From Opitutales bacterium (GTDB lineage Bacteria; Verrucomicrobiota; Verrucomicrobiia; Opitutales; Seribacteraceae), in NCBI GenBank assembly GCA_028101545.1, contig JAOHKZ010000014.1, positions 1-52,097 of the forward strand: a DNA stretch of 52,097 nt. The letters are read 5' to 3'. Every line of letters begins with the position of its first letter. The first letter of the stretch is position 1. The notes under the pieces are model-generated. The model was not told where the DNA came from, did no database searches, and saw nothing but the letters and a program-made list of their open reading frames with translations. Positions 9,960-28,567 of this stretch are shown piece by piece. A program made the position numbers and the translations under genes.

Positions 9960-10766
9960 ATGGATCCAATTCTTAGTATTTTTAAAAAGTGGGGACTTCT
10001 TTGGCAGTTTTTACTTCGGAATGTGAAACAAAGACATCGTGGAAGCGTGCTAGGAGCTTTTTGGTTGATTGCCAACCCATTGCTCTTGCTTGGTCTTTAT
10101 GTTTTTGCATTTGGCATTGTATTTGGCGGTCGATTTACCGATTCTCCAACTGAATCTACCCTCGATTATGCCCTTGGCGTTTTTCTGGGGTTAAGTGTTT
10201 TGGGGTTGGTTTCTGGGACTATAGGTGTTTCTCCTGGCGTTATTGTTAATCAACCCAATTTCGTAAAGAAAGTCGTATTCCCATTAGAGATTCTACCAAC
10301 TGCTATGGTTGGGGCATTGAGTTATGATTTAATAATTGGACTAAGCTTATGTTTGATTGGTATTACTTTTCTGGGTTCTGGATTTTCATCGAGCTTTTTA
10401 TTAATTCCGGTTATTATTGCACCTACTTTTTTGATTGCTCTGGGCTTATCTTGGTTCTTTTCCGCTCTTGGAGTGTTCGTTAGGGATGTGACTCATCTCG
10501 GTTCATTTCTTGGCTTGGCTTTGTTATATGCAAGTGGAGTTTTTTACTCAGCAGAAAAAGCCAAAACTGCAGCACCTCAAATTTGGAAGTTTTTGCAGTG
10601 GAATCCGCTTTTGCAAATTATTGATTCCTTAAGAAAAGTAACGATATGGGGCGGTCAACCAGATTGGGATTCCATTGCATATGCATGGATTTTTGGAATT
10701 GTAGTGTTAGTTCTTGGTGCTTGTTTTTTTAATCGGTTGCGACCAGCTTTTGCAGATGTTGTTTAG
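9960..10766 (+). CDS. ABC-2 polysaccharide export permease (Wzm/TagG-like)
   Basis: A 268-residue inner-membrane permease with about six transmembrane segments and the TagG/KpsM/Wzm architecture: an N-terminal amphipathic part with LLWQFLLRNVKQRHRGSVLG, a conserved feature before the first membrane helix, and a C-terminal region ending with LRPAFADVV. Such permeases move lipid-linked O-antigen or teichoic-type polymers across the inner membrane with a Wzt-like ATPase. The only candidate ATPase here is encoded on the other strand more than 10 kb away. Its stop codon shares bases with the stop of the convergent GT4 gene, so no room exists for a separate terminator between them. Confidence 0.9.
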   Translation: MDPILSIFKKWGLLWQFLLRNVKQRHRGSVLGAFWLIANPLLLLGLYVFAFGIVFGGRFTDSPTESTLDYALGVFLGLSVLGLVSGTIGVSPGVIVNQPNFVKKVVFPLEILPTAMVGALSYDLIIGLSLCLIGITFLGSGFSSSFLLIPVIIAPTFLIALGLSWFFSALGVFVRDVTHLGSFLGLALLYASGVFYSAEKAKTAAPQIWKFLQWNPLLQIIDSLRKVTIWGGQPDWDSIAYAWIFGIVVLVLGACFFNRLRPAFADVV

Positions 10767-12883: not shown

Positions 12884-13996
12884 ATGAAAATTTATACCTC
12901 TTCTATTTTATCTATTTTATTATTTTCTTGTTTTGGATCCTTCCTCCATGGACAGCCAACAACCTATTCTAATACTGCGAGTTATATCGTTGGGGATTTA
13001 GTAGTTTCGGGAAGTGCTACTTACATTGCTATTGCCGGAAGCACTGGCCAAACCCCTCCTAATACTTCATATTGGTCTGACTTATCAGTTGCTGCGACAG
13101 CTCTTAATATCCCAACTGAAGCAGTGCCAACTTTAGATACTCAAACAATCCTCAATTCACTTCCTGGATTCACCCCTGACGGGGGTGCTTCTAGCGGAGT
13201 TTCTATATATCAAAAAGGCTTATCAACAGCAGGCTATGTATCATCAGATGCCTACCTAAGTGGAGGATTTATTATCAAAGGTGGTACTAAAAGAGTTATT
13301 ATAATGGGCAAAGGTGCGGGTAATGTCAGTGATCCACTTGACAACCCTCGTTTGGATTTACTTTCAGGTAACTCAAACTGGAGTTCAATTGCTAACAACT
13401 CTGATTGGAAAAGCGGTTCGCAAGTAACCGACATTACAGCTACTAAACTCATGAATGGTTACAAAGACACTGATGCTGCATTAATTACAACATTGGAACC
13501 TGGGACCTATCTCGCAAATGTTCACTCTCAGAGTGGTGATGCCGGCGGAGCACTTGTAGAAATTTATGATTTAGATGCTATAGAGGGAACTAGTTCTAAT
13601 TCTTATTTGCACGCAATTTCAACTAATGGAACCGTGTTAGCAGGAACTGCAGCTGGTCAGAAAATGAGTGCTGGTTTTGATATTTCGGGTACTGGTTCTC
13701 TTAAAGTTTTAATAATGGCCAAGACATCTGTTGGCGTAACTTCAGACCCTTTAAATAATCCCCGTTTAGATTTGCTTTCAGGTAATGCAAGTTGGGCTTC
13801 AATTGCTAATAATTCCGATTGGAAGAATGGTAGTAATGTTACTGAAATTACTGCTACAAAACTAATGAATGGTTATCCTGATAACTCAGCGGCTTTGATG
13901 CTGACATTACAACCAGGGGTTTACATAGCTGATGTTTATTCAGAAGATTCTGATTCAGGAGGAGCGTTGGTTGAGGTTTATTTGGTTGAAGATTAA
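12884..13996 (+). CDS. Secreted protein with CBM5/12-like module and two tandem repeats
   Basis: A 370-residue exported protein (signal peptide 1-23, ending FLHGQ). Residues 27-67 resemble a carbohydrate-binding module of the CBM5/12 (chitin-binding) type: YIVGDLVVSGSATYIAI, then PPNTSYWSDL. Two beta-rich repeats follow, about 110-232 and 242-367, each with a GGF/AGF-type strand, NPRLDLLSGN, SIANNSDWK, ITATKLMNGY and an ending GGALVEIYD/GGALVEVY. This repeat resembles the abundant Verrucomicrobial extracellular repeat ending in ALVEVYD. It is probably a surface or secreted glycan-binding protein rather than an enzyme, as no catalytic motif is visible. It stands alone on the + strand inside the polysaccharide locus. 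Confidence 0.75.
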   Translation: MKIYTSSILSILLFSCFGSFLHGQPTTYSNTASYIVGDLVVSGSATYIAIAGSTGQTPPNTSYWSDLSVAATALNIPTEAVPTLDTQTILNSLPGFTPDGGASSGVSIYQKGLSTAGYVSSDAYLSGGFIIKGGTKRVIIMGKGAGNVSDPLDNPRLDLLSGNSNWSSIANNSDWKSGSQVTDITATKLMNGYKDTDAALITTLEPGTYLANVHSQSGDAGGALVEIYDLDAIEGTSSNSYLHAISTNGTVLAGTAAGQKMSAGFDISGTGSLKVLIMAKTSVGVTSDPLNNPRLDLLSGNASWASIANNSDWKNGSNVTEITATKLMNGYPDNSAALMLTLQPGVYIADVYSEDSDSGGALVEVYLVED

Positions 13997-14106: not shown

Positions 14107-14937
14107 TTATAAAGGCTTAGATGCCTCCAATTCTATAGCTGGTGCTATTTTTTCCCATGGCCCGTTACTTCGTGTGTCACATTGAAGTAATTTGGAGTTG
14201 AATTTTGGTAGATATTCAAAAACTTTAGATATACCGTTTTTCAAGCATCTTAATGATTTCTTTTCTTTACGAGTAATTTTTAGCTCATCAAGTAGACAAT
14301 TTAAATCCCCAAGTATGTATGCTAGTTGATCAAAGTTTGACCAAGAGCTAGGTTGGCATTTAGAGATATTGAACTGTGAAAAGATCCTTTTTGCACCGGA
14401 GGTAGTCATATTAAAATAATGGTTAGGGTATCCATGCATGTGTTGCATGAAAGCGGTCAGTACAAAAACTTTTCCTCCAGGTTTGAGCACTCGAAATATT
14501 TCTTCAGCTGCAATCCATGGAGAGTGTAAATGCTCAAAAACGGCTAATGAATAAACATAATCGAACGAATCATCGGGAAATGGCATTAGGTGAGCATCGA
14601 CAAGAGAATGTAAATCTGTAGAGTACAAATAAGCGTCAGTTTTTATTAAGTGGGGTAGGTTGCATTTATCGACACCCGCACCAAGTTGGAGCACATCTTT
14701 ATTTGAATCTAACGCCTCTTGTACAAAAGGAATCTTTAAAGTAGAAGAATCTTGAATTGGTAATGATTTGGCTTCGTTTAAAATATCTAATTCTTCACTT
14801 TCCTTGTAGGGTCTCAAAATGGGAACACCATGAAGTAGTTTGATCTCAAAACCACAATTAGTACAATTTTGTAATGATAGCAATTTGCTGTCTGGTTTCC
14901 CAATATTAGTTTTACACAGTGGACAGGAGATTTGCAT
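14107..14937 (-). CDS. Class I SAM-dependent methyltransferase with N-terminal zinc ribbon
   Basis: A 276-residue protein. The N-terminus is a zinc-ribbon-like module with two Cys pairs, Cys5/Cys8 (CPLC) and Cys25/Cys28 (CTNC), as in the Trm112-like start of many methyltransferases in polysaccharide clusters. The catalytic domain has the SAM motif VLQLGAGVDKC, the acidic SFDYVYSLAVFEHLHSP segment and VLKPGGKVFVLT, all of the Methyltransf_11 type. It likely methylates a sugar or sugar nucleotide (inference). It is downstream of the GT2 gene on the same strand, after a 104-base gap, so it may be the last gene of the leftward operon or a separate unit. Confidence 0.88.
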   Translation of the reverse strand: MQISCPLCKTNIGKPDSKLLSLQNCTNCGFEIKLLHGVPILRPYKESEELDILNEAKSLPIQDSSTLKIPFVQEALDSNKDVLQLGAGVDKCNLPHLIKTDAYLYSTDLHSLVDAHLMPFPDDSFDYVYSLAVFEHLHSPWIAAEEIFRVLKPGGKVFVLTAFMQHMHGYPNHYFNMTTSGAKRIFSQFNISKCQPSSWSNFDQLAYILGDLNCLLDELKITRKEKKSLRCLKNGISKVFEYLPKFNSKLLQCDTRSNGPWEKIAPAIELEASKPL

Positions 14938-15041: not shown

Positions 15042-15920
15042 TTAAAATGAAATTAAGCTCATATTTTTTTTTAATGAATAGAAAATCTCTTTTTGATTAA
15101 GTTGTTTGGTTTTATAAAGCCATAAGAAATCTTTTGTAAAACTTTTGAACAAGACTGGTATGATTTTTCGGTTAGCGGTTTTTAAATTATAGCCAAACTC
15201 TTTTTTGAAATATTGAATTTCAGTCGCACGTCTTTTTATTAAATTTTTAAAGCTAAAGTTGTGGGAGTGATAGACAATAGAGTCTGGTTGATATGCTATA
15301 CTAAAACCGGATTCAATAATTTTTTGAGCCCAAGTTTGATCTTCGCCGAAATTAACATTGGGAAATGGAATCTTTTCCCAAACGGATCTTCTTAATCCTG
15401 AATTATTGTTAGAAAAGAAATGTAAAGTTTGCCTAAGTGAAATAGTATTTTTACAAATATCCCAATTTTCAATTTTTCGAATTGGGAATTTGCTCATCTT
15501 ATTGAAGTGATTGTCAATATCACGGTGTAATAATTTTGGATGATTCTTATGTGCAATATGCCTTCCAAATACACCCGCAATATTGTTGTTTTCAAGAGTA
15601 TCGACCATAGTTGCTAACCAATAATCATTTGCAGGTATTGCATCCTGAGTTAAAAGTAAAATAAACTCAGCTGAAGATTTAGAAATTGCAAAATTCCGAG
15701 TCTTTCCGTGTTCAAACTCACTTTGATTTATTTTATATAAATGTATGTTTTCGTGAATTTCAGATTGGGCATTGAGAAATTCTGTTGTTCCGTCATTGGA
15801 GGATGAATCTACAAATATGATTTCGTATGACTGGTCGAATTTTTGATTGAGAATTGCATTTAAAGACTTCTTGAGTAGATCGCTTCCATTAAATGTAGGG
15901 CAGATGATAGAAACCTTCAT
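15042..15920 (-). CDS. Glycosyltransferase family 2 (rhamnosyltransferase-like)
   Basis: A 292-residue GT-A fold enzyme. It starts with MKVSIICPTFNGSDLLKKSL; the nucleotide-binding region shows VDSSSNDGT (37-45), the DXD-like region follows LLLTQDAIP, and the later GEDQTWAQKI gives the catalytic-base ED. The C-terminal YHSHNFSFKNLIKRRATE stretch is a pattern I associate with the rhamnosyltransferase branch of GT2, which fits the dTDP-rhamnose genes nearby. It sits 3 bases downstream of the kinase-GT4 fusion, so it is translated in the same operon. DNA here is very AT-rich (11 G/C in the 60 bases 15061-15120). Confidence 0.9.
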   Translation of the reverse strand: MKVSIICPTFNGSDLLKKSLNAILNQKFDQSYEIIFVDSSSNDGTTEFLNAQSEIHENIHLYKINQSEFEHGKTRNFAISKSSAEFILLLTQDAIPANDYWLATMVDTLENNNIAGVFGRHIAHKNHPKLLHRDIDNHFNKMSKFPIRKIENWDICKNTISLRQTLHFFSNNNSGLRRSVWEKIPFPNVNFGEDQTWAQKIIESGFSIAYQPDSIVYHSHNFSFKNLIKRRATEIQYFKKEFGYNLKTANRKIIPVLFKSFTKDFLWLYKTKQLNQKEIFYSLKKNMSLISF

Positions 15921-15923
15921 AAA

Positions 15924-18548
15924 TTATTTACTTTTGGAAATTGAATTTTTCAAAATAGTCTCGATTTGCTTTGAACTTTTTTCCCACGATAATGAATTTA
16001 CATAATATAATGCATTCTTTGAAATTTTATTTCGTTGGTTCTTATCATCTAGTAGACTGGAAATTGCTTGAGCTATAGATTCTGGGCTTGGTTTAGCTAA
16101 TATAACGGAGTCCTTTGGAAAAGTTTTTCTGGTATTTTCACCATCCATTTCAATTACTGGTAAACCGCAAGCCATCATTTCTTGTGGAATAAGTGAATAA
16201 TTAGTTGAAGAAAAAACCATACCGAGGGTACATTCTCTGTAAAGTGAGCCTAAGTTTTTAGCGTTCAATATTCCATGTGATTTAAATTGAAAGGGGAGAT
16301 TGGCTAAATTTCTCTCACCAAAAATATCAACATGAAAGTCATTTCTTTCTTCAGCCAAAACCTCAAGGGCAAGCATTCCCATTTCAGATAACCTACGAGG
16401 TGTAGCGCTACGGGAGTAAAATGCTATTCGATTGGATTCTTTTTTCTGGTTTTTTGGTGGGAAATAGTTTTGGGAGTCATATGCCAATTCGAAATAATCT
16501 ACATCATTAAGCCCTTTTTTATTTAAGACTGATTTTAACCATTTACCCGCAGTTATAGCGTGGAAACCAAAGTCGAGAGTGTTTTGAGCCAAAAAATATT
16601 CTGTTCCCTTTGGGAAAAAATCAGCTTCGTAATCTTGAACAAAGTACATTCTTCTTCTAAATTTTTCTATTGCTCTTACAAAATAGGCACTTCTCCATTC
16701 GGTTGCTATTATAATATCACCTTTTAAGTTACTTAAATCGTCTTCATTAATAAAACCGACTTCTGCATTCAGATTTTGAAAATGTTCAGAAATAACCTTC
16801 TTTGCGTTACTTGCAGAACCCCATTGAGAATTCCACATTATCCAGATTGTGTTTTGATGACCAAAAGATTCAAGAAAACGAATTGTTCTAAAAATGGTCA
16901 TGTGTCCACCTGCACCTTTTGAAAAATCGGGGATTATCCAATGAATGTTGAGAGAATTTGGATTCAATTTTTCATTTATTTCAATTTGTGGTAATGATTT
17001 TAATTTTGTTATGAATTTGTAATCGATCTTACCATTATTGTTATTAGAAAATTCAGAGGTTTTAAGTACTTTTTGTTTTTTTCTATAAATGAGACGGCTT
17101 CCAATTCTTATTATGTTTCCGTTTGCGGTTTCAGCATCGACATGAATTAATTTTAAACCAGTACCAATTTTGAATTGAGCGTGAAAGCCTAGTAAAACAT
17201 CAACATCAGTTTGACTCGGTAAAAAATCATTTAGAAATCTCGTTGAATGATTTTGGCAGTCAATAATTCTATTTCCTATACGAGCCATAATTCTTTTGGC
17301 TGGATTTCCGTTACTGTCGGCAAAATATCCAGAAAAATTAATTTCACCATCAGCTGAATACAGAATTTTTTTTCTTGGTTCTTGAAGGATGTAAGTGTCT
17401 GAATAAAAGTAACTTTTAAAATTCTTATTTAGATTAGTAAAAAATGAAAAGGTGCAAACTTTCTGAAGAAAGTTGAGAGCCTTGAAGGTTTGAGATTGTT
17501 TGATTTCAGCAATTTCCTTGAGATTTCTCACAAAGTGTTTTCTGCATTGGTTGTAAGTTTGAACCATGAACTCTAGTTCAGTTCTAAAAATTATAGTGCT
17601 GTCTAATGTCTCCAAACCGGAGGGAACTTGTACCGTTTTTTTGTTTTTAATTTCCGATGTTAGGTTAGAAATCTTTTTTAAGATTCCATAAGTTAATTTT
17701 GGCGTCAGATGTAAATCTCGTGTTTTGTCTTCCAGCATTAGTTGTCGAACCCAAAAATATAAGGAATACCCTGATAATTCTTGACTTTTGGGGATGAACT
17801 CGGTTTCCCGAATTTCTTTTCTCAATGATGAAAAGGCATAGAATCGAATCCAATCTTCTTTAGGGAAGTATGTCTTTTGAGCAAATTCAGTATCTATTAT
17901 TACTATTTTACCACTTTTATTTATAAGTAGATTACGATCAATGAAATCTCCATTTGTCCATCTGCATGTTGGTTTTTTTATACATTCTAAATTTTGTTTT
18001 AAAAGTGGGAAAACCTCATGATCAAAGTTTTTTATTACATCGTTTGGTAGTACTTTTATTGATCTAATTTTCTCGAATAAATGGTTAATTTCACTGATTA
18101 GACCTTCTGTGGAACCTTTAGATTTAGTTTCTGCGTCTTGTAGGTTTGAGAACAATTTATTCAATGACTTGAGGATAATTTCTTCCGGTAGGAATTTTTT
18201 TTCTAAAGCAAGATTGAGTGGTTGCCCCCTAAAAAATTTATGACAAAGAAAATCAAGCGAGTATTCTTTAAAGAATCGAATTGGAGCAAAACTATACTCT
18301 GGGTATGCCTTATTAAATTCAATTGATTGTTGGAAGCGATTACTTAAATTTGAAGAAATTTCAATATAGAGTATGGGTTTAGAACCCTCGTGGATTATAA
18401 AATTATGAATTTGTTTATTCCAACTCCTAAGGCGATGAAGTGGTCTTGCAAAGATTTTGGTTTCGTTAACATCTGTAAGTATATTTTGTTTAAGGAGTGC
18501 CTCCTTAATATCATTACATGTTAAAGCATAAGGGGTACTTAAGAGCAT
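15924..18548 (-). CDS. APH-like kinase / beta-sandwich / GT4 glycosyltransferase fusion
   Basis: An 874-residue three-part protein. Residues 35-240 look like an aminoglycoside-phosphotransferase or WbdD-type kinase: NGDFIDRNLLI (199-209) gives the catalytic Asp201 and metal-binding Asn206, and IVIIDTEFA (215-223) the second metal Asp. Residues 395-490 resemble the small beta-sandwich often fused to glycosyltransferases (INFSGYFADSNGNPAKRIMA). Residues 535-870 are a GT4-type transferase: WIIPDFSKGAGGHMTIFR (537-554), FVQDYEADFFPKG, AFYSRSATPRR and PQEMMACGLPVIEMDGEN. It starts inside the end of the upstream methyltransferase gene (10-base overlap). It probably phosphorylates and glycosylates the same glycan end (inference). 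No signal peptide or membrane helix is seen. Confidence 0.8.
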   Translation of the reverse strand: MLLSTPYALTCNDIKEALLKQNILTDVNETKIFARPLHRLRSWNKQIHNFIIHEGSKPILYIEISSNLSNRFQQSIEFNKAYPEYSFAPIRFFKEYSLDFLCHKFFRGQPLNLALEKKFLPEEIILKSLNKLFSNLQDAETKSKGSTEGLISEINHLFEKIRSIKVLPNDVIKNFDHEVFPLLKQNLECIKKPTCRWTNGDFIDRNLLINKSGKIVIIDTEFAQKTYFPKEDWIRFYAFSSLRKEIRETEFIPKSQELSGYSLYFWVRQLMLEDKTRDLHLTPKLTYGILKKISNLTSEIKNKKTVQVPSGLETLDSTIIFRTELEFMVQTYNQCRKHFVRNLKEIAEIKQSQTFKALNFLQKVCTFSFFTNLNKNFKSYFYSDTYILQEPRKKILYSADGEINFSGYFADSNGNPAKRIMARIGNRIIDCQNHSTRFLNDFLPSQTDVDVLLGFHAQFKIGTGLKLIHVDAETANGNIIRIGSRLIYRKKQKVLKTSEFSNNNNGKIDYKFITKLKSLPQIEINEKLNPNSLNIHWIIPDFSKGAGGHMTIFRTIRFLESFGHQNTIWIMWNSQWGSASNAKKVISEHFQNLNAEVGFINEDDLSNLKGDIIIATEWRSAYFVRAIEKFRRRMYFVQDYEADFFPKGTEYFLAQNTLDFGFHAITAGKWLKSVLNKKGLNDVDYFELAYDSQNYFPPKNQKKESNRIAFYSRSATPRRLSEMGMLALEVLAEERNDFHVDIFGERNLANLPFQFKSHGILNAKNLGSLYRECTLGMVFSSTNYSLIPQEMMACGLPVIEMDGENTRKTFPKDSVILAKPSPESIAQAISSLLDDKNQRNKISKNALYYVNSLSWEKSSKQIETILKNSISKSK

Positions 18549-20167
18549 TCTATAAAATAACTTGGTGCAAAGTTATGCAGTGTATTGAGATTCGCCATGG
18601 ATTTAGCCAAGGATTTTATTTCACTCTGTTTATTAAGAAGATTACCATTTGTTCCATCATGTTCTTTAATCCACTTTTCTTTCAAAATATGTTCATTTAA
18701 TTTACATTGGTTAGCTTTTATGGGGAATATTTTAACGGGTAGCTTGTAATCTGGAGTTGAAGTGTAAAAGTTTATTTTATTAAAACCAGCATCTAATAGC
18801 ATATCTTTGTATTCGGCTATGCTATGAGTAAGAGAACGTAGTTCTTGGTTGGTCTTTTCCTTATATAGCTTTTTAGCTAATTCCTTTTCGTAGATTGTAA
18901 TATTTGGATGACCAATATGATCGTCTGGTGCACCCAGTAGGTATTTTAATCCCAACCGGTTTTCTATTCCGATGATTAATTTTCCATTTTCCTTTAGCTC
19001 TGATTTAATTTTCTTTAAAAAATCTAGTTGTAAATCTTCGGGTTCTTTTCTCGATCTAAAAGCACCTACCCATTCTAGGACGCCAATCGATAGAATTAAG
19101 TCGAATTTATTTTCAAATTTAATATCGAGATAATCTGCACCAATAAAGGATATATTTTTTGATACCTTTTCCTGCCTAGATGCAGTTTTTATAAAATCTA
19201 GTCTTTCCGGAGTTGGCTCTAATGAACAAATTTTGTTTTGTTTTGCTAATGGAAGGGTGAACTGACCCCATCCAGCACCAATATCCAAAATTTGTAAATC
19301 TTTTGGCTTTACGAATTCGTCTATAAATTTGGTTCTTTTTGGACTAGTTACAATTTCGTAAAGCCATGGATTAGCTTTTTGAAACTTTTCTTTGACGGCC
19401 TTTTTCCAATGAGTGCCATTTTTGATTTCTTCGATAATAAATCTGATATTTTCTTCTTTTGTATCTTGGTAACAATTTTCAGGCCTAGCACTGAATGATT
19501 CTCCCAAACCTATCGAGTGTTTAACCTTTTTTATCTCGAATCTTATTTTATTATCAAAGTCCTTCTCTTCCTTTTTCGATAAACTTAGTGCCAAGTTAAT
19601 CGGAGTAACTAGAAAAGCGAAGAAAACAGATTTTTGGAACCATTCCATATCCAAAAAATCTAACTTACTCCAATGGTCAAGATGTTCTTCAAGAGGAAGG
19701 TCGATAATAGGGTCATTGCATTCATTATGGGTAGTTGCAATTAAGTTTCCTGATTTGTTAAAAGCTAAATCAACTTGCTGGACTGGTTTTAAAGTTCTGA
19801 GATCAAATTCGTGTAGAATTTTATGCTGATCTCCAAGCTTCTTTTTCCCCATAATTGAGATTTTTTTAACTTCGATTGATCCATTGGTGTCCATCGGATC
19901 AAATCTAAGACCGTAAATTTTTTTGGCCGGGATTTTGAAGTTTACCTCCCCTGTTTTGTTTTGATCTAAAAGTTTTTTATTTGAATGTCTCTCGATATAT
20001 CCTCCACCAATGTCATAGAATACTTGGCAATTCGCATGGTTGTTAGATTTGCAAGTTATATTCAAATAATATGTTGAAGACTGAATTTTCGAACAATATG
20101 AAATCATCAAACCTATCGATACTCCAATAGATGATAGTATCAAAAATTTAGATTTATTCAGCTGCAT
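18539..20167 (-). CDS. Membrane-anchored SAM methyltransferase with extracytoplasmic domain
   Basis: A 542-residue protein with two predicted membrane helices (about 8-24 and 180-197). Between them lies a beta-rich segment (VFYDIGGGYIERHS, IYGLRFDPMDTNGSIEVKKI) of the kind found in periplasmic parts of polysaccharide membrane proteins. Lysines before helix 1 and after helix 2 put this segment outside and the C-terminus inside. Residues 260-480 are a class I methyltransferase: ILDIGAGWGQFTLPLA (293-308), LILSIGVLEWVG, then IENRLGLKYLLGAPDDHIG (401-419) and YKLPVKIFPI. That last signature belongs to a family usually fused to a kinase, and here the kinase is the next, overlapping gene. Its start overlaps the upstream ligase-like gene by 14 bases. 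Confidence 0.82.
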   Translation of the reverse strand: MQLNKSKFLILSSIGVSIGLMISYCSKIQSSTYYLNITCKSNNHANCQVFYDIGGGYIERHSNKKLLDQNKTGEVNFKIPAKKIYGLRFDPMDTNGSIEVKKISIMGKKKLGDQHKILHEFDLRTLKPVQQVDLAFNKSGNLIATTHNECNDPIIDLPLEEHLDHWSKLDFLDMEWFQKSVFFAFLVTPINLALSLSKKEEKDFDNKIRFEIKKVKHSIGLGESFSARPENCYQDTKEENIRFIIEEIKNGTHWKKAVKEKFQKANPWLYEIVTSPKRTKFIDEFVKPKDLQILDIGAGWGQFTLPLAKQNKICSLEPTPERLDFIKTASRQEKVSKNISFIGADYLDIKFENKFDLILSIGVLEWVGAFRSRKEPEDLQLDFLKKIKSELKENGKLIIGIENRLGLKYLLGAPDDHIGHPNITIYEKELAKKLYKEKTNQELRSLTHSIAEYKDMLLDAGFNKINFYTSTPDYKLPVKIFPIKANQCKLNEHILKEKWIKEHDGTNGNLLNKQSEIKSLAKSMANLNTLHNFAPSYFIECS

Positions 20168-21389
20168 TATTTGCCTTGGTTTTTGTAGCCGTTTGAATCA
20201 AAAAACATAAACATGAAAAGAACATGATATATGTCAAAACAACATCTGTTTGCCAAATGCTCCAACTAAGTGAAAATAAAACTGTAACAGCTGTAATTAT
20301 CGAAATGACGTAAGGTGCGGAATCTGAACAGTTAACCAATTTAATCATGACTTTATTGGTTTTGTTAATGAAGTAGGTTAAAATTAAGGCTCCCAATAAA
20401 CCAAATTCGAGCCAAATTAGAGCAACGAAATTGTGTGGGTGGTTACCAGGAAATGTTTCCCATGATTTTAACCATTCTCTTACAGGTGAGGGATGTTCTG
20501 GCAAAAATTGAATTATGTTGAGGGAAAGGGTAGATCCAAAACCTTTTCCTATCAAGAAATTGTCCATGATAGCATTAGATGCTACTTCAAATTGTAAAAA
20601 CCTTTGATACAGTCGATGATGAACCCAATCCATAATTGAGAGATTAAGAAACTGAAAAATAAGGGGGAAACACAAAACATAAGAAATGAGGCTCCAATAA
20701 AGAATCTTCCATGTTGTCATCGAATTATAGCTACTTGCAAAATAAATTAAAATAGAAATTATTAGTGCTAGTTTCGCAGATTCTGAATAGGAAGACATCG
20801 TGGCTATTAAGGCCAAGGAAATTACAAGCAACTTTTTATATTCGAAACACCTTCTTATTGTAAACATTACCGGCCAAAAAAATATAACTAACCAAAATGT
20901 ATGATATTTTTCATTCCAAGCACCTACTGAGCATTGAAATGCAAAGTAATTTAAACTTTCTTTAATGTAAAACTCTGAGTTTTGTAAAATCATCAAGATG
21001 CAAAGGAAAAGAAAAATTATCCAAAACGATTGAGTATTAATTCTGTTTGAGCTCTGAACTGAGAACAGCATAACAACCGATAAGCCAAGGATGCATTTGC
21101 AAATTGCACTGTAAGTCCAATTGGGCTCAGTATCTGTCCATATTGGTAAAATAATTGTTAAAAAGGATAAGGAAGAAAATATGCAGATGTTTTTTACCGC
21201 TCCCTTAAGTATAGGCGATCGCAATTCAGAATATGATAATGATATAAGTGCAAGAAGTGACATTCCAAGAAGTACAGAATTTCCAATAGAGTCGATATTA
21301 CTTGCAAAGAAAAATGCGTATATACTGAATGAAAAAAGTAGACTAGCTTGTATTACAGAAACAAATTTGTGATTTTGTAAATTTCCCAT
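20154..21389 (-). CDS. O-antigen ligase/polymerase-like membrane protein
   Basis: A 411-residue integral membrane protein with roughly ten or more hydrophobic segments. It has the layout of the WaaL/Wzy superfamily: several N-terminal helices, SYSESAKLAL (about 200-209) at the position of the usual Ser/Arg-containing motif, a large extracytoplasmic loop (about 252-320), and HPHNFVALIWLEFGLLGALI (317-336), the signature that ends the loop. Such proteins transfer polysaccharide from undecaprenyl diphosphate to lipid A core, or polymerise repeat units. Because the operon also has a Wzt ATPase, a ligase role is more likely than a Wzy role (inference). It is 3 bases from wzt and overlaps the next gene by 14 bases. 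Confidence 0.85.
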   Translation of the reverse strand: MGNLQNHKFVSVIQASLLFSFSIYAFFFASNIDSIGNSVLLGMSLLALISLSYSELRSPILKGAVKNICIFSSLSFLTIILPIWTDTEPNWTYSAICKCILGLSVVMLFSVQSSNRINTQSFWIIFLFLCILMILQNSEFYIKESLNYFAFQCSVGAWNEKYHTFWLVIFFWPVMFTIRRCFEYKKLLVISLALIATMSSYSESAKLALIISILIYFASSYNSMTTWKILYWSLISYVLCFPLIFQFLNLSIMDWVHHRLYQRFLQFEVASNAIMDNFLIGKGFGSTLSLNIIQFLPEHPSPVREWLKSWETFPGNHPHNFVALIWLEFGLLGALILTYFINKTNKVMIKLVNCSDSAPYVISIITAVTVLFSLSWSIWQTDVVLTYIMFFSCLCFLIQTATKTKANNAAE

Positions 21390-21392
21390 CTT

Positions 21393-22781
21393 CTAGTTAC
21401 AATCGATCATAATCATTAAGTCTTCGCACTTTATTGAACAATTACAGTTTGCGATTCCAAAGGAACCATCGGTGTTAATAATTTCTAATTCTTTTGCATC
21501 ATATCGTCGATGGATGACTTCGAGTTCATCATCTTCTCGGAATCGAGTTACACCGAAGGAGATTAGATATTTACCGGCTCCTAAGTTTGCACTCAATTGG
21601 AATGTTATCTTTATCTTCTTTCCATTCTCTAAATCGTTTGTGGGGGTTTTAGAAAAAAGAGTATTTTGACCATAGATTTGTTGCCCCTTTGTATCTCGAA
21701 TGGTTAACGCATAAATTGGGTTTGCAACCAGTGCTTTACCTAAAACAGTGAAGGTTATTTCGAAGATTTCGGAGGAAGGTATTACATTTGATTCAAAGCC
21801 TTCATTATTTAAAATATTAAATTCAATAATTTCTGCTTTTTTACCTCCGTAATTAAATTCTTCCGAGGCTGAATTGTTCTCCTTTTCAGAGTTAAGTAAT
21901 TCAGATCGCAGATCTTCATTGCTAGGTTTTTGAGAAATAGATTTTTCCTTTTTATTGGAGATTTCACTTTCTTGAGGTTTGGTTTTATCTCCAGAAATAA
22001 TTTTGGAGTATTCGTTAATTACATTTTTAGGAATACCATTTGATTCAATCTTTCCTTCGTGTAAAAGAATTGCCGCATTACATAAGCGTGCAATGGAGTT
22101 GATATCATGAGAAACAAATAGAAGGGTTTTTCCTTTTTCCTTAAACGATTCGAGGAATGAAAAACATTTAGACTGGAAACGTGCATCCCCTACAGCTAGT
22201 GCTTCGTCAATTATGAGAATGTCAGGGTCGGTGTGAGCGATAACGGAGAAAGCAAGCCTGACCACCATTCCGCTTGAATAAGTTCGAACGGGCTGATTTA
22301 TAAAGTCTCCGATGCCGGAAAAGGAAGTTATTAGATCATATTTTTTATCAACCTCACTCGTACTAAGCCCTAAGATTTTAGCATTTAAATAGATGTTTTC
22401 TCTTCCTGTGAATTCGGGGTTAAACCCCGATCCTAATTCAAGGAGTGCTCCGATTTTACCGTTTGAGTGAATTTCCCCTGAGCTTGGTTGCAATGTGCCA
22501 GCGATTATTTGTAATAGTGTGCTTTTTCCAGATCCATTTAATCCAATAATTCCAACGGCATCCCCTTTTTTTATTTTTAGCGAAATATCTGAAAGGGCTG
22601 AAAAAGATTCTTCAGTACAGTTTTTTTTACTTCCTTTAAAAAGGGCGCCGAGCATCAATTGCCAAGTTCGTTTCTTTTCATTTAAAGACGATGATACTTT
22701 TGGGTAATCCTTGTCAATCTTGGTTGTAATTACAGCATATTTTGAATTATCTTCCTCAAAATTATCTGTAGTGGTATGCAT
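21393..22781 (-). CDS. wzt: Wzt-like O-antigen export ATPase with C-terminal domain
   Basis: A 462-residue ABC ATPase of the polysaccharide-export family. Residues 60-260 hold GLNGSGKSTLL (80-90, Walker A), the KIGALLELGSGFNPEFTGREN region typical of this family (split here only by reading), YSSGMVVRLAFSV (168-180, signature), ILIIDEALAVGD (188-199, Walker B) and VSHD (223-226). A charged, low-complexity linker (about 262-315) leads to a beta-rich C-terminal domain (about 317-460) like Wzt_C, which in E. coli O9a binds the modified end of the finished chain. It is the first gene of the leftward operon. Its permease partner is presumably the Wzm-like gene at 9.96 kb. Confidence 0.92.
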   Translation of the reverse strand: MHTTTDNFEEDNSKYAVITTKIDKDYPKVSSSLNEKKRTWQLMLGALFKGSKKNCTEESFSALSDISLKIKKGDAVGIIGLNGSGKSTLLQIIAGTLQPSSGEIHSNGKIGALLELGSGFNPEFTGRENIYLNAKILGLSTSEVDKKYDLITSFSGIGDFINQPVRTYSSGMVVRLAFSVIAHTDPDILIIDEALAVGDARFQSKCFSFLESFKEKGKTLLFVSHDINSIARLCNAAILLHEGKIESNGIPKNVINEYSKIISGDKTKPQESEISNKKEKSISQKPSNEDLRSELLNSEKENNSASEEFNYGGKKAEIIEFNILNNEGFESNVIPSSEIFEITFTVLGKALVANPIYALTIRDTKGQQIYGQNTLFSKTPTNDLENGKKIKITFQLSANLGAGKYLISFGVTRFREDDELEVIHRRYDAKELEIINTDGSFGIANCNCSIKCEDLMIMIDCN

Positions 22782-23013
22782 TTGCTCTTTATTTTTTTAA
22801 TATCTGAATTTGTAAAACATTTTTCCTAATACTTTATGATTGTAGGGTCAACGATTGTCCTAATTCCTTTAAGTTAACTCAAGACTTTAGATTTAAGAGG
22901 TGATCTCTACACTGTAAATTTTACTTACCCTCGAAATTGTAATTCTTGTAAAAAGATTGATAGACTTAAAATCTCCGTTGTCATTTTAGTAAATTTTGAG
23001 ATCATCTGGGTTA
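22782..23013. promoter_or_regulatory. Divergent intergenic region between the wzt and rml operons
   Basis: This 232-base AT-rich spacer separates the leftward wzt operon from the rightward sugar-nucleotide operon, so it should contain both promoters. I could not place convincing -35/-10 pairs, a JUMPstart-like element, or a tRNA in it. The call rests on gene orientation only. Confidence 0.35.
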
Positions 23014-23892
23014 ATGTTTTTTATACTCGGAGCAACGGGATACCTTGGGTCTTATTTTGTTAAATATCTTCGTCAAGAAGGTGAAGATGTTTTTGGACTA
23101 TCTCGTACAGAGATCGATTATACTGATGTAGGTTCTTTAATTTCAATTCTGCGGAGAAAAAAACCTAAGTTTCTGATAAATGCCGCCGGCTACACGGGGA
23201 AACCTAATGTTGATGCTTGTGAATCTGATAAAGCAGAGTGTTTGTTTGGAAATGCGGTATTTCCTGGGCGTATTAGAACTGCATGTGAGGAGGTGGGTAT
23301 TCCGTGGGGGCATGTTTCCAGCGGTTGTATATACTCTGACAGAAAATCGAATGGAGAGGGATGGAGCGAGAATGATGAGCCGAACTTTTCATTTCGTAAT
23401 GGACCATGTAGTTTTTACAGTGGTACAAAAGCGTTGGGTGAGGAAATTTTAAAAGATGCTAAGGATTGTTACATTTGGAGACTACGGATCCCTTTTAACG
23501 AGGAGAAAAGTCCGCGAAATTATTTACAAAAGCTTTTAAATTATTCTTCTCTCTTGGAGGCGGAGAATTCAATATCCCATATCGATGATTACATTAATTC
23601 TTGCCTCTCTTCATTTACTCAAGAGTGTGAGCCTGGAATTTATAATTTAACCAATTCCGGTTCGATTAGGACTAGGCAGGTGGTTGAGTGGATGAAGGAG
23701 GAGGGCGTGACAGATAAAGAATTTAACTTTTTTGAAAACGAGGAGGATTTTATGGCCAAGGCAGCAATTACACCTCGTTCAAATTGTGTGATGGATACTT
23801 CCAAAGCAGAAAGAAACGGAATTGCATTACGGCCCGTTGAGGAGGCAGTGCGTGATTCACTTCGTAAAATGAGAGAACAAGTTTTAGCATGA
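23014..23892 (+). CDS. NRS/ER-like bifunctional 3,5-epimerase/4-reductase (RmlD-like SDR)
   Basis: An extended SDR of about 292 residues. The ATG at 23014 puts the NAD(P) motif GATGYLG at residues 6-12; a TTG at 22996 would add six residues. The catalytic pair is Tyr135/Lys139 in FYSGTKALGEE. The sequence follows plant nucleotide-rhamnose synthase/epimerase-reductase (NRS/ER) more closely than bacterial RmlD: NAAGYTGKPNVDACE (56-70), SSGCIYSD (102-109), RLRIPF (156-161), PRNYLQKLLNY and GIYNLTNSG. Cys105 and Lys173 match in place and spacing (68 residues) the residues I recall as epimerase residues in the plant enzyme. With rfbB and rfbA it would make dTDP-L-rhamnose without a separate RmlC. 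Its stop overlaps rfbB by 4 bases. Confidence 0.8.
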   Translation: MFFILGATGYLGSYFVKYLRQEGEDVFGLSRTEIDYTDVGSLISILRRKKPKFLINAAGYTGKPNVDACESDKAECLFGNAVFPGRIRTACEEVGIPWGHVSSGCIYSDRKSNGEGWSENDEPNFSFRNGPCSFYSGTKALGEEILKDAKDCYIWRLRIPFNEEKSPRNYLQKLLNYSSLLEAENSISHIDDYINSCLSSFTQECEPGIYNLTNSGSIRTRQVVEWMKEEGVTDKEFNFFENEEDFMAKAAITPRSNCVMDTSKAERNGIALRPVEEAVRDSLRKMREQVLA

Positions 23893-24947
23893 AATCAATA
23901 ATTGTAACGGGTGGATTGGGTTTTATTGGATCGAATTTTATTCGAATGCTTTTAAATGAAAATCTGTGTGATTCAGTTTTAAATATTGATAAACAGACTT
24001 ATGCGGGAAATCCAGAAAACTTGATTGAATTTGAAAAAGATTCACGATACCAGTTTTTAAAAGCTGATATTGGGGATACTAGAAAAGTCGAATCTGCTAT
24101 TTCGGAGTTTTGTCCGTCTTCGATTATTAATTTTGCCGCAGAAAGTCATGTCGATCGATCCATCGATACACCGGAACCTTTCGTGGAAACCAATGTCCTT
24201 GGTACTCTTCGTTTGCTTCAAGCAAGCAGAAATTATTTTTCTCAATTGGAGGAGAAGGGCAAAAACGAATTTCGCTTCCTGCATGTCTCAACTGACGAAG
24301 TTTATGGTAGTTTAAATATTACCGATCCGGCTTTTTCAGAAACGACTTCTTATGCACCGAATAGTCCATATTCAGCTTCCAAGGCAGGAGCTGATCATTT
24401 GGTCAGATCTTATCATCATACTTTTGGTTTACCCACTCTTACTACAAATTGTTCTAATAATTACGGGCCTTTTCAATTTCCTGAAAAATTAATACCGCTC
24501 ATGATTCTTAATGCATGTGAAGGAAAAAATCTTCCGATTTATGGAGATGGTGCGAATATTCGTGATTGGCTTCATGTGGAGGATCATTGCCGAGGAATTT
24601 TTACCGTTCTTGAAAAGGGGAGGGTAGGTGAAACATATTGTATCGGTGGCGACTCTGAAAAAACTAATCTTGAGGTGGTGGATACTATTTGCGAAGCTTT
24701 GGATAAAGACCGATCTGAAAATGCACCCCATAAAAACTTGAAAACTTTTGTGAAGGATCGTCCTGGTCATGATCGTCGCTATGCAATCGATTTTTCCAAG
24801 ATTAGAAATGAATTAGGTTGGGAACCCCGTTTCTCTTTCGAGGAAGGGATGGCTCAAACTGTTGACTGGTACTTAACTCATTCCGAATGGTGTGACAATG
24901 TAACCTCAGGAAAATATCAAAGGGAAAGGTTGGGAAGCGATGAGTAA
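23889..24947 (+). CDS. rfbB: dTDP-glucose 4,6-dehydratase
   Basis: RfbB (RmlB) converts dTDP-glucose to dTDP-4-keto-6-deoxyglucose with bound NAD+. The 352-residue length is normal. Motifs are [12 protein letters not shown] (NAD binding), STDEVYGSL with the catalytic Thr-Asp-Glu, YSASK with the catalytic Tyr/Lys, [17 protein letters not shown], and [13 protein letters not shown], all diagnostic of this enzyme. It overlaps the NRS/ER-like gene by 4 bases (ATGA) and rfbA by 8 bases, so the three are translationally coupled. Its product is the direct substrate for the upstream epimerase-reductase. Confidence 0.97.
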
Positions 24948-25818
24948 TCGAAAGGGTATTGTTTTAGCCGGTGGATCAGGTACCCGTCTTTATCCACTCA
25001 CTATGGCTGTTAGTAAACAAATTATGCCTGTTTACGACAAACCAATGATTTATTATCCGATCTCGATTCTCATGCTTGCTGGAATTCGGGAGATTTTAAT
25101 TATTTCCACACCAAGAGACCTTCCTTCCTTTAAAGAATTACTAGGGACCGGTGAAAGATTCGGAGTAGAATTTAATTATGCCGAACAGCCCAGCCCAGAT
25201 GGTCTTGCTCAGGCTTTGATTATTGGGGAAGAATTTCTCTCAGGTTCTCCCTCCGCACTTATTTTGGGAGATAATGTATTTTATGGGCATGAACTAGAGC
25301 AGACTCTCGCTGATGCTGATGCTCAGGAAGCAGGTTCAACCATTTTCGGGTATCATGTTTCAGATCCAACAAGTTATGGTGTGGTTGAATTTGATAAAGA
25401 GGGCTTAGCTATTTCCTTAGAGGAAAAACCAGAGCAACCGCGTTCAAATTACGCTGTCCCGGGTTTGTATTTTTACGACAAGCATGCATCGAAATATGCA
25501 AAGGCTCTTTCTCCGTCGAGTCGTGGAGAATTAGAAATTACTGATTTGAACAGAGTTTATTTGGAAGCAGGAAATCTTTCCGTTGAGGTTTTGGGGAGGG
25601 GAACTGCCTGGCTTGATACAGGTAGTCATGATAATCTTGCATCGGCGACTGATTTTGTCCGCGTTATCGAAAAAAGACAGGGTTTGAAAATTGCCTGTTT
25701 GGAAGAAATCTCTTTGTACAAAGGGTGGATGACTTCTTCAGAAGTTGAAAAAGCGGCCCGAGCTCATGGTTCTTCAACATACGGAAAATATTTAAAAAAC
25801 TTAATTTTAAAATCCTGA
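24940..25818 (+). CDS. rfbA: Glucose-1-phosphate thymidylyltransferase
   Basis: RfbA (RmlA) joins dTTP and glucose-1-phosphate to dTDP-glucose, the entry step of the dTDP-deoxysugar pathway. The 292-residue protein has the nucleotide-binding [20 protein letters not shown], then [20 protein letters not shown], the [11 protein letters not shown] segment with the metal-binding Asp, and [15 protein letters not shown], all classic. It is the last gene of the three-gene sugar operon. A palindrome and then metK follow within 82 bases, but metK is unrelated in function and probably has its own promoter. Confidence 0.97.
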
Positions 25819-25899: not shown

Positions 25900-27069
25900 A
25901 TGTCAAAATCTTTTACATTTTCTTCCGAGTCCGTTGGAGAAGGACATCCCGATAAAGTTTCCGATTCTATATCGGATAGTGTACTTGATGCCTGCCTAGA
26001 ACAGGATCCCCAAAGCCGAGTGGCTTGTGAGACTTTAGTTAAAAGTAACTGCGTGACTATTGCTGGTGAGATTACCACCAATGCAAAATTTGATTACGAG
26101 CAGATTGTGAGAGATGCTATTCGTAAAATCGGTTACATAAATGATGATGACATTTTTCATGCCGATCAGGTTTTCATAACTAATCAATTAACTGCGCAAT
26201 CGCGTGATATCGGACAAGGAGTTGATGCAGCGGCCGCAGAGGGCAAAGATACCGCAGAGCAGGGTGCAGGCGATCAAGGAATTATGTTTGGATATGCTTG
26301 TAATGAGACAGAGGAGTTGATGCCCGCTCCAGTCATGTTTGCACATAGAATTTTAAGAAAAATGGCGGAAGTTCGCCACGCTGGGATTGAAGCAAAATGG
26401 TTGCGTCCAGATTGTAAATCCCAAGTAGCTCTTAAGTACGAGGGTGGACAAATGACGGGCATCGAAAATGTGGTCGTATCAACACAGCATTCAGCTGATG
26501 CGGATAACAATACGATTCGTAGTTTTATAACTGAAGAAATTATTAAACCGTCCCTTCCATCTGAACTTCTTTCATCATCAACTGATTATCTTATCAATCC
26601 AACTGGCCGGTTTGTTGTAGGTGGCCCACAGGGTGATTCTGGTCTTACAGGTAGAAAAATCATCGTTGATACTTACGGAGGTTGGGGTAGGCATGGAGGA
26701 GGTGCATTTTCCGGTAAGGACCCAAGTAAGGTTGATCGCTCTGCAGCATACATGTGCCGATGGGTCGCAAAAAACATTGTTGCTGCTGAATTGGCTGAAC
26801 GAGTAGAGATACAGGCTGCCTATGCGATTGGATATCCAGAACCAACGAGCATAACTATTGATTGTTTTGGAACCTCAAAAGTGCCCGAAGAAACTATTGA
26901 AAAAGCTCTTTTGGAAGTATTTTCATTTAAACCCGCTGATATCGTCAGCCAGTTGGATTTACTTCGACCCATTTATCGTGAAACCACGCACTACGGACAC
27001 TTTGGAAAAGCAAATTTACCTTGGGAGCAAACCAACAAAATAACAGAACTTCAAAACGCTGTTGGATAA
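25900..27069 (+). CDS. metK: S-adenosylmethionine synthetase
   Basis: MetK makes SAM from methionine and ATP in the cytoplasm. The 389-residue length is normal. Motifs visible are [16 protein letters not shown] (11-26, including the catalytic His16), [12 protein letters not shown] (about 121-132), the second signature [18 protein letters not shown] and the C-terminal THYGHFGK. It is followed 49 bases later by ahcY, so the two probably form an operon that both makes SAM and removes its by-product. The nearby locus encodes at least two SAM-dependent methyltransferases. A palindrome upstream may be its operator. Confidence 0.98.
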
Positions 27070-27118
27070 TTTGCATCTAATTTTGATCTTTTTTCTTTTT
27101 TACCTCGTTATTTAACCC

Positions 27119-28567
27119 ATGACCACAATGACTGAAACATTAACACCTACCCTAGATTATAAAGTTGCTGATATAACCCTTGCCGAATTTGGCCGTAAGG
27201 AAATTTCTATCGCAGAACACGAAATGCCTGGACTTATGGCAACCCGCGAAAAATATGGACCATCTAAACCTCTTGCGGGAGTTAAAGTAATGGGTTCCTT
27301 ACACATGACCATTCAGACTGCGGTATTGATCGAAACTTTAGTTGAACTCGGTGCCGATGTCAGATGGTGCTCATGCAATATATTTTCAACACAAGATCAC
27401 GCTGCTGCTGCAATCGCTGCTGCAGGTGTCCCCGTTTTCGCTTGGAAAGGTGAAACCCTTGAGGACTATTGGGAATGTACTTACAAAGCAATTACATGGC
27501 CAGACGGTTCAGGTCCTGATCAAATTGTTGATGATGGAGGAGACGCTACCATGCTCATTCATAAAGGATTGGAATTAGATAATGGAAGCGACTGGGTAAA
27601 CTCTCCTTCGGACAATCATGAAGAAAGTGTTGTCAAAGACCTACTCAAACGTTTACACGCCGAAAACTCAAATCGTTGGCAGTCAATCGCAGATGCAGTT
27701 GTTGGTGTATCCGAAGAAACCACAACTGGTGTTCACCGACTCGTACAGATGGAAGAGGAAGGAAAACTTCTTTTCCAAGCGGTTAATGTAAATGATTCCG
27801 TAACTAAATCCAAGTTCGACAATAATTATGGTTGCCGTCACTCTTTGGTTGATGGAATTAAGCGTGCTCTTGATGTACTCATTTCTGGCAAAGTAGCTAT
27901 GGTATGTGGGTTTGGTGATGTTGGAAAGGGCTCTGCCGATTCTCTCGCCAATGAAAAAGCACGGGTAATGGTATCCGAAGTTGATCCAATTTGTGCATTA
28001 CAGGCCTGCATGGCAGGTTTTCAGGTCACAACAGTCGAAGACGCTTTAGAAACTGCCGATATTTTTGTAACCACTACAGGTAACAAAGACATTATTACTG
28101 CAGAGCATATGAGCAAAATGAAAGACCAAGCAATCGTATGCAACATCGGACATTTTGATAATGAAATACAGGTTGCGAAACTTGAAGCAATGGATGGTGT
28201 TACTAAGGAAGTAATTAAAGAAGATTCTGTTCCTGGTGGTCCAGTCAGTCGTTTTACATTTCCAGACGGTAGAAGCATCTATCTTTTAGCTGAAGGTCGT
28301 TTAATCAACCTTGGCTGTGCAACAGGTCATCCAAGTTTTGTTATGTCAAATAGCTTTACTAATCAAACAATTGCCCAAATTGACATTCGTAATAACCCGA
28401 ATCGTAATATTGGAGTGTATCGATTGAGTAAAGAACTTGATGAAGAAGTTGCCCGCTTACATTTGGACAAACTTGGTGCTAAACTTACAAATTTAAGTAG
28501 TGAACAGGCAGATTACATTGGTGTCCCGGTTGAAGGCCCATACAAACCTGAACATTACAGATACTAA
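27119..28567 (+). CDS. ahcY: Adenosylhomocysteinase
   Basis: AhcY hydrolyses S-adenosylhomocysteine to adenosine and homocysteine, relieving product inhibition of methyltransferases. The 482-residue form carries the roughly 40-residue insert of many bacterial enzymes. Motifs are [16 protein letters not shown], the substrate-binding [32 protein letters not shown], the NAD-binding [13 protein letters not shown] (about residue 262 on) and the C-terminal KPEHYRY, whose Lys and Tyr reach the partner subunit. There are two ATGs three codons apart at the start; the first is taken. A strong hairpin follows the stop. Confidence 0.98.

Follow-up and report, generated by a model that had tools for sequence, protein, structure and literature searches.

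How might a bacterium stop a growing surface polysaccharide at its end and mark the chain for export? The question is raised by a minus-strand operon on contig JAOHKZ010000014.1 of an Opitutales bacterium (assembly GCA_028101545.1), whose 52,097 nucleotides are called the window here; the window is the whole contig, and the parent genome is 57% complete. In order, the operon encodes Wzt, the ATPase of an O-polysaccharide ATP-binding cassette (ABC) exporter, a WaaL-like protein, a methyltransferase (MT), a protein joining a kinase to a family 4 glycosyltransferase (GT4), a family 2 glycosyltransferase (GT2) and a second methyltransferase, with junctions of +3, -14, -10, +3 and +104 bp. We consider it probable that these genes stop and cap a surface sugar chain for recognition by the exporter, as a two-protein terminator and split counterpart of ORF6 from Klebsiella pneumoniae O7 (ORF6-O7), where MT-kinase capping was characterised in 2024 (PMC11231755).

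The methyltransferase and its proposed kinase partner

The MT (18539-20167, minus strand, as all operon features below; 542 amino acids) is the proposed methylating half of the terminator and predicted to be membrane-anchored. Its C-terminal half (residues 250-542; 18542-19420) is a class I S-adenosylmethionine methyltransferase catalytic domain according to Pfam, Foldseek (best match CmoM, 7.3e-11) and family alignment. It includes the family signature IENRLGLKYLLGAPDDHIG (residues 401-419; 18911-18967), in which R404, K408 and Y409 are invariant (39/39) and H417 is kept in 38/39 sequences of alignment A4, comprising 37 sequences from the 80 scanned loci, the window and L042. The signature marks a large family: the window MT has 469 relatives, of which the best 80 were fetched, and all locus counts cover those 80. 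The nearest named relatives among them are Opitutales (L063, L080).

Outside the 18 closest loci, which are from Verrucomicrobiota, a kinase region is fused to the MT in 39/62 loci and a separate kinase is encoded by the next gene in 16/62. An earlier note, made from the window sequence alone, had described this MT family as one normally fused to a kinase, and the counts bear this out in that a fused or following kinase is frequent. The fused-kinase profile was built from 36 of the 62 loci (at least 330 amino acids after the motif), and 36 of the 39 fused calls are thus circular at the profile level; the 16 split kinases lay outside the profile and match it at E 3e-17 or better. The pattern D-x4-N...D-x-E occurs in 38/39 fused proteins, the instance in L108 looking spurious. 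In the remaining 7/62 loci a kinase was not found or could not be judged; next to the MT in one of them, L096, another gene shows an APH-like motif and matches APH, the aminoglycoside phosphotransferase family, below threshold.

The kinase-GT4 gene of the window (15924-18548) encodes an 874-residue fusion of kinase, beta domain and GT4, and overlaps the MT gene by 10 bp, confirming the overlap noticed earlier. Residues ~1-310 (17619-18548) are predicted to form a kinase domain of APH fold. Its AlphaFold2 model has a predicted local distance difference test (pLDDT) score of 84 and a predicted template modelling (TM) score of 0.82, and its best Foldseek match among APHs has E 9.2e-8 (probability 1.00), which upholds the APH-like kinase proposed before. 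The top 50 Foldseek matches are APHs and a lanthipeptide synthetase. Matches to APH(2'')-Ia and APH(3')-Ia have a TM score of ~0.5 and a root-mean-square deviation mostly of 6-8 Å, and the relation to solved APHs is therefore distant. The catalytic loop NGDFIDRN (residues 199-206; 17931-17954) emerges from the family alignment, in which NGD-x4-N and D-x-E are invariant in 15/15 kinases, window included, as are D201, N206, D219, E221, D232 and R235. Profile A3 consists of these 15 sequences and leaves out L046, a broken gene, and L073 and L074, which look like near copies of L072. By hhalign the window kinase family matches the kinase region of the fused MT-kinase proteins (probability 90.3, E 1.5e-6) and the kinases that other phyla encode in a separate downstream gene (84.7, E 6.7e-6); reversed profiles as controls gave 0.8 and 0.3, and three unrelated domain profiles 0.1.

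The C-terminus of the same protein (residues ~528-874; 15927-16967) is a WsaF-like GT4, with WsaF_C (PF22772) at 4e-10 and Glycos_transf_1 at 2.4e-9. WsaF_C lies above its cut-off (40.1 vs 27 bits) and WsaF_N under it (25.2 vs 27 bits); identity to sequences in genomes G015 and G022 is 47% and 44%. In between, a domain that we judge from its sequence to be of beta type (residues ~395-490; 17079-17366) matches L048 (phmmer 9e-12), where it precedes GT-like sequence, and L013 (3e-6). The partner of the kinase varies: by Pfam it is a GT4 in the window and GT2s in L069, L075, L081, L106, L110, L120 and L129, and no Pfam GT was found in the kinase proteins of L065, L078 and L071.

Conservation of the neighbourhood

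In 14/18 Verrucomicrobiota loci (L063-L080) a window-type kinase lies downstream of the MT, in L078 after a 1.1 kb gap. The contigs of L063, L064 and L080 break off no more than 300 bp beyond the MT, and in L077 there is a divergent gene that shows an APH-like motif and matches APH below threshold. The MT/kinase split is a recurrent form, since it occurs in Verrucomicrobiota loci and in 16/62 others. Wzt lies at most 300 bp upstream of the MT in 43/74 loci (of the 80) that have at least 1.3 kb of upstream sequence. Among the Verrucomicrobiota loci with enough sequence, in some of which the MT start was set by hand from open reading frame lists, it does so in 11/16 and is present somewhere in the locus in 14/16; the figures for the other loci are 32/58 and 42/58. 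Across 288 genomes of the phylum, 125 have Wzt_C and 8 have the MT, each of the 8 being one of the 125 (8/8 vs 117/280 without the MT; Fisher p 0.0011), and in 6/8 genomes the two share a contig within a few kb. The co-occurrence of these genes, singled out earlier as worth a survey, is therefore recurrent. Both surveys overlap, as L063, L068, L080, L105 and L126 are, judged by length, contigs of G026, G359, G011, G222 and G127. Because Wzt_C without this MT is common, the MT seems to stand for one of several cap types. The MT, kinase and Wzt domains have correlated pairwise distances (r 0.61-0.93 over 13 loci; 0.93 for MT and kinase), which shows co-inheritance, not contact.

Several loci depart from this layout. 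Two relatives, L046 (4704-5723 and 5805-6137; G017) and L047 (~8883-9437; G037), have next to Wzt a kinase gene that is broken or degraded, with several stops; neither genome has an MT match at E 0.001, and we read these genes as remnants of a lost capping module. The Arenicella loci L093 (9815-11047) and L119 (9956-11188) hold MTs with a tail and no kinase found alongside, the contig of L093 ending soon after. They resemble the methyl-only O8 WbdD and offer a natural comparison for phosphate specificity. In L045, by length the same contig as L080, a 147-residue MT fragment (69-512) starts near the signature with other genes adjoining, which might reflect truncation, recombination or an assembly break.

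Wzt and the exporter

Wzt (21393-22781; 462 amino acids; ABC_tran 9.2e-22) carries a Wzt_C domain (PF14524, E 3e-27) at residues ~310-442 (21456-21854), and its best phmmer match, PDB 8dku (9e-79), covers both domains. A Wzt_C profile of ten sequences (A5) matches the PDB chains 8dku/7k2t (1.4e-16), 6o14 (1.1e-15), 8dky (1.4e-15), 2r5o (2.1e-9) and 5hno (2.2e-7). We take all of these to be Wzt proteins or Wzt C-terminal domains, with 8dku presumably the Wzt of Aquifex aeolicus, 2r5o the Wzt_C of E. coli O9a and 5hno that of Raoultella. Because of the Wzt_C match and the A5 matches to those chains, the tail, which the earlier note had rightly seen as an extra C-terminal domain, is predicted to read the cap as the corresponding domain does in A. 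aeolicus (PMC9445017). Separately, the Wzt_C matches of three genus members lie within open frames of 887, 871 and 873 amino acids (G013:C90, G014:C28 and G016:C69, respectively), a hint at Wzt fused to another part.

The likely partner of Wzt is a Wzm-like ABC-2 permease (9960-10766, plus strand; PF01061, ABC2_membrane, 2.5e-19), which the earlier note did not include. It lies ~10.6 kb from Wzt on the opposite strand and scores far under the cut-offs of the KpsM and Wzm/RfbD models.

The predicted membrane region of the methyltransferase

Ahead of the catalytic domain, MT residues 1-205 (19553-20167) are predicted from model, hydropathy and profile to comprise a helix (5-29), a beta-sandwich of the LRFDP family (33-157) and a second helix (174-205). 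The MT model reaches a pLDDT of 89 as a whole, with lower values in parts of residues 1-205, and a simple hydropathy test recovers both helices in L064 but only the first in the window. The proposed tie of the MT to the membrane is in line with these predicted helices, which would flank the sandwich.

Sequences of the window, L042 and L064 and the second copies of L067, L070, L072 and L075 make up the LRFDP profile, and matches to these are circular; matches to first copies, to L057, L066, L071 and L074 and to kinase proteins are non-circular. Among the latter, the domain lies behind the kinase in fused proteins (e.g., L101 residues 556-607, E 1.1e-9) and in separate kinase proteins (L078 330-399, E 1.7e-9; L087 256-358, 5e-16); no domain of the window kinase-GT4 protein matches the profile. 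By its position, the LRFDP domain might be the equivalent of the Ig-like (immunoglobulin-like) domain of ORF6. Two copies are found in separate membrane proteins of ~400-420 amino acids upstream of Wzt in Opitutia (L067 7059-8327, L072 3474-4697, L075 352-1560, L070 7147-8415 and L057 12552-13796). Of these, the L072 protein has three hydrophobic segments, and two were found in that of L067, which is without a Pfam match.

The positive-inside rule would put the sandwich of the window in the periplasm. It is conceivable, if improbable, that the MT is a transmembrane terminator, in which a cytoplasmic capping enzyme is wired via two membrane helices to a periplasmic beta-sandwich, akin to the domain that follows the kinase in O7-type terminators, coupling capping inside to the same glycan, or to the ligase, outside. 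Participation of this outward-facing domain in export would link capping to secretion in a new way.

Proposed mechanism and alternatives

From the domain content, the predicted kinase fold, the conserved catalytic residues, the MT family, the operon layout and the conserved neighbourhood, we infer the substrate, the reaction order, the methyl-phosphate product and its recognition by Wzt_C, and each chemical step is conditional in this sense. A surface polysaccharide, probably a rhamnose-containing O-antigen, would be built in the cytoplasm and exported by Wzm/Wzt. GT4 and GT2 would extend the chain, and the GT4 fused to the kinase might, as a polymerase or adapter module, compete with the capping reactions for the chain end on which they act. 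The APH-fold kinase, on the GT4 polypeptide, would phosphorylate the non-reducing terminal sugar, and the membrane-anchored MT would then methylate that phosphate. Wzt_C would recognise the cap and let the chain enter the transporter; after export, the WaaL-like protein would ligate it. RmlB and RmlA genes adjoining the operon speak in favour of this reading. That the MT is a terminator module we regard as very probable, and that the kinase acts on the same chain end as likely; for a methyl-phosphate product we have a slight preference. The earlier note had also suggested that one terminal sugar is phosphorylated, methylated and glycosylated. This finds no support, as the GT modules of ORF6-O7 are a polymerase whose work is ended by the cap (PMC11231755), and a GT4 elongating the chain in competition with capping is more likely than one glycosylating the capped sugar.

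Several observations weigh against such a terminator. The kinase N-terminus of the window has no significant Pfam match of its own; PF01636 (APH) matches 3 of the 15 kinase family members scanned (best 8.5e-7), the window not among them, and Pkinase matches one. The best PDB match of profile A3 is corramycin phosphotransferase at E 0.016, a weak sequence link to structures. Kinases are expected to have a lysine in strand 3 for ATP binding. This position, assigned from the alignment, is Tyr in the window and His, Lys, Tyr and Arg in seven, five, two and one of the 15 sequences, and because it is not conserved we call the kinase atypical. R404, K408 and H417 are also kept in the MT of L119, which has no kinase found beside it, and are therefore no proof of a phosphate acceptor. 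A crude heptad test detected no coiled-coil ruler in the window protein (104/300 shuffles as good), the coiled coil being clear only in L071 (0/300) and weaker in L076 (12/300). The spacing of the ORF6-O7 key residues, applied to 11 family members, places all residues only in L134 and L125. In L125 and L100 the kinase Asp is displaced by 6 residues, in the remaining members at least one residue was not located by the script, and 1/11 fits within one residue throughout. Moreover, ORF6-O7 and WbdD enter the comparison by their published residues and descriptions, not by direct sequence alignment. At the level of the locus, Wzm lies outside the operon, 31/74 loci have no Wzt directly upstream of the MT, and MT and Wzt_C lie on different contigs in G127 and G292.

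The missing lysine would also suit a methyl-only cap. Here the MT would methylate a hydroxyl of the sugar, like E. coli O8 WbdD and Geobacillus WsaE, and the kinase-GT4 protein would serve chiefly as a glycosyltransferase, its kinase inactive or acting elsewhere. L093 and L119, which carry only the MT and its tail with no kinase seen, are compatible with this, as is the WsaF-like GT4, given that WsaF has as its partner WsaE, which makes a 2-O-methyl cap (PMC2943079). However, six residues of the kinase (D201 to R235, listed above) are invariant in 15/15 sequences, which is not expected of an inactive domain, and the kinase and MT genes stay together, with the r of 0.93 over 13 loci given above. 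We thus consider a methyl-only cap unlikely. The kinase might instead phosphorylate another target, be it in-chain sugars, giving a phosphoglycan, the linkage region or the lipid A-core, with the MT as an independent decoration enzyme. APH-fold kinases have many small-molecule substrates, and a second methyltransferase and a GT2 follow in the operon, but the pair often adjoins a Wzt with Wzt_C, a reader of chain ends, and capping of the chain end is what the one characterised protein found with such an MT and APH-like kinase does (PMC11231755); we regard a different target as quite unlikely.

Finally, the glycan might belong to an S-layer or be an exopolysaccharide made by the same logic. Many homologous loci in Gram-positive bacteria without lipopolysaccharide (Paenibacillus, Lysinibacillus, Clostridia) would agree with this, and so would the likeness of the GT4 to WsaF. 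Opitutales are Gram-negative, however, the nearest named relatives among the best 80/469 are Opitutales, and a WaaL-like Wzy_C gene lies inside the operon; we find a glycan of this kind improbable. Capping by a split terminator is the reading we retain, and it suggests that MT-kinase capping occurs across many phyla as a set of exchangeable modules, which may be fused or split, soluble or membrane-anchored, and have a GT2, a GT4 or no recognised GT as partner. It also offers a lead for annotation: this MT family beside a Wzt with Wzt_C points to a terminator and would name kinases that Pfam often misses.

Neighbouring genes

Between Wzt and MT lies a gene that the earlier note did not mention (20154-21389), encoding a polytopic, WaaL-like protein of the O-antigen ligase/Wzy_C family (PF04932, 1.8e-9; nine hydrophobic segments). 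L063 has a WaaL-like gene in the same place. In L072 (6267-7196) and L074 (3047-3976) a metallo-beta-lactamase-like gene is found between Wzt and MT, and in L064 (488-1198) a different methyltransferase-like gene takes the place of the WaaL-like gene; these names are given from sequence. Behind the kinase-GT4 gene, after a 3 bp gap, follows a GT2 gene (15042-15920; PF00535, 1.3e-22) and, 104 bp further downstream, the second methyltransferase (14107-14937; PF08241, 3.6e-13).

On the plus strand, RmlD-like, RmlB and RmlA genes (22996-25818; NCBIfam/Pfam) would provide dTDP-rhamnose (deoxythymidine diphosphate rhamnose) precursors. RmlB and RmlA exceed the NCBIfam cut-offs, RmlD is under its NCBIfam cut-off but above that of Pfam, and no rmlC was identified among the window genes scanned. 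metK and an S-adenosylhomocysteine hydrolase gene (25900-28567) directly adjoin the rml genes, as they do, judged by sequence, in the relatives L042 and L047; a link to methylation demand is conceivable. The window further encodes a small, apparently secreted protein (12884-13996) without a Pfam match, and proteins that look similar by eye occur in or beside the polysaccharide locus in the genus members L043 (12359-13459), L044 (2601-3779), L045 (2206-3360) and L046 (1062-2078).

Comparison with known capping systems

The exporter side of the window resembles the Wzm/Wzt of A. aeolicus, whose Wzt has a cap-binding C-terminal domain and, presumably as 8dku, is the best PDB match over both window Wzt domains; the caps described there are 3-O-methyl mannose or rhamnose (PMC9445017). 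The Geobacillus stearothermophilus S-layer glycan system WsaE/WsaF shares the WsaF-like GT4, an MT-based cap and the wzm/wzt and rml genes (PMC2943079, PMC3898925). It differs by its 2-O-methyl cap and by the lack of a kinase in the part of the account drawn on (PMC2943079), and it is by this description that WsaE is set apart from the window MT.

WbdD of E. coli O9a had been put forward as the model for the window. The proposed set of functions is indeed alike (kinase, methyltransferase, chain end and cap-dependent export), but WbdD is one protein with a Src-like kinase and a coiled-coil ruler (PMC3482155), and ORF6-O7 is closer (PMC11231755). No chain named WbdD is among the phmmer matches of the MT (23, E up to 1) or of kinase-GT4 (4, E up to 10), nor among the best 60/232 profile matches. 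We reject direct WbdD membership on account of this absence among the matches listed, the predicted APH-type kinase fold and the separate polypeptide. Among the Foldseek top 50, neither WbdD nor AmiN appears for the kinase model, and neither WbdD nor CgnL for the MT, CgnL being the published nearest structure to the O7 MT (PMC11231755).

In ORF6-O7 one polypeptide unites MT, APH/AmiN-like kinase, Ig-like domain, coiled coil and two GT2s; it adds methyl-phosphate to position 3 of the terminal rhamnose (PMC11231755). Its key residues Y28, Y66, G91, G93, E112, Y158 and D441 (PMC11231755) have the counterparts Y32, Y70, G95, G97, E116 (counted by eye), Y162 and D446, with offsets of +4 to +5, in L134, which was found with the window MT as query. 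By this indirect measure, the spacing in L134, the MT is of the same family. Further likenesses are a kinase without Pfam annotation that is APH/AmiN-like, an additional domain of putative beta type, GT modules that belong to the assembly and a cluster with wzm, wzt and rml genes for the rhamnose pathway. Because the kinase of WbdD is Src-like, ORF6 is a better functional model than WbdD, and the best found.

Novelty of a kinase-GT fusion as such, part of the new architecture claimed earlier, is ruled out, as ORF6-O7 already has one (PMC11231755), and also by the GT2 domains on the split kinases of L081, L106, L110, L120 and L129, all five scanned outside the Verrucomicrobiota set. The other part of that claim, the split with a membrane-anchored MT, does set the window apart, and no published split MT/kinase-GT terminator was noticed in the literature searched, most subscription journals lying outside its reach.

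The window genes thus look like a split version of an ORF6-type terminator. MT and kinase are one polypeptide in ORF6-O7 and two overlapping genes in the window; the partner is two GT2s there and a GT4 here; the window MT is preceded by two predicted membrane helices; and the coiled coil of ORF6-O7 has no counterpart detected in the window by the crude heptad test. The Ig-like domain of ORF6-O7 sits behind the kinase, whereas the window has its LRFDP domain on the MT and a different domain at residues 395-490 of the kinase-GT4 protein. The differences are thus the split with a predicted membrane-anchored MT and the GT4 partner, and the closest relative is already characterised.

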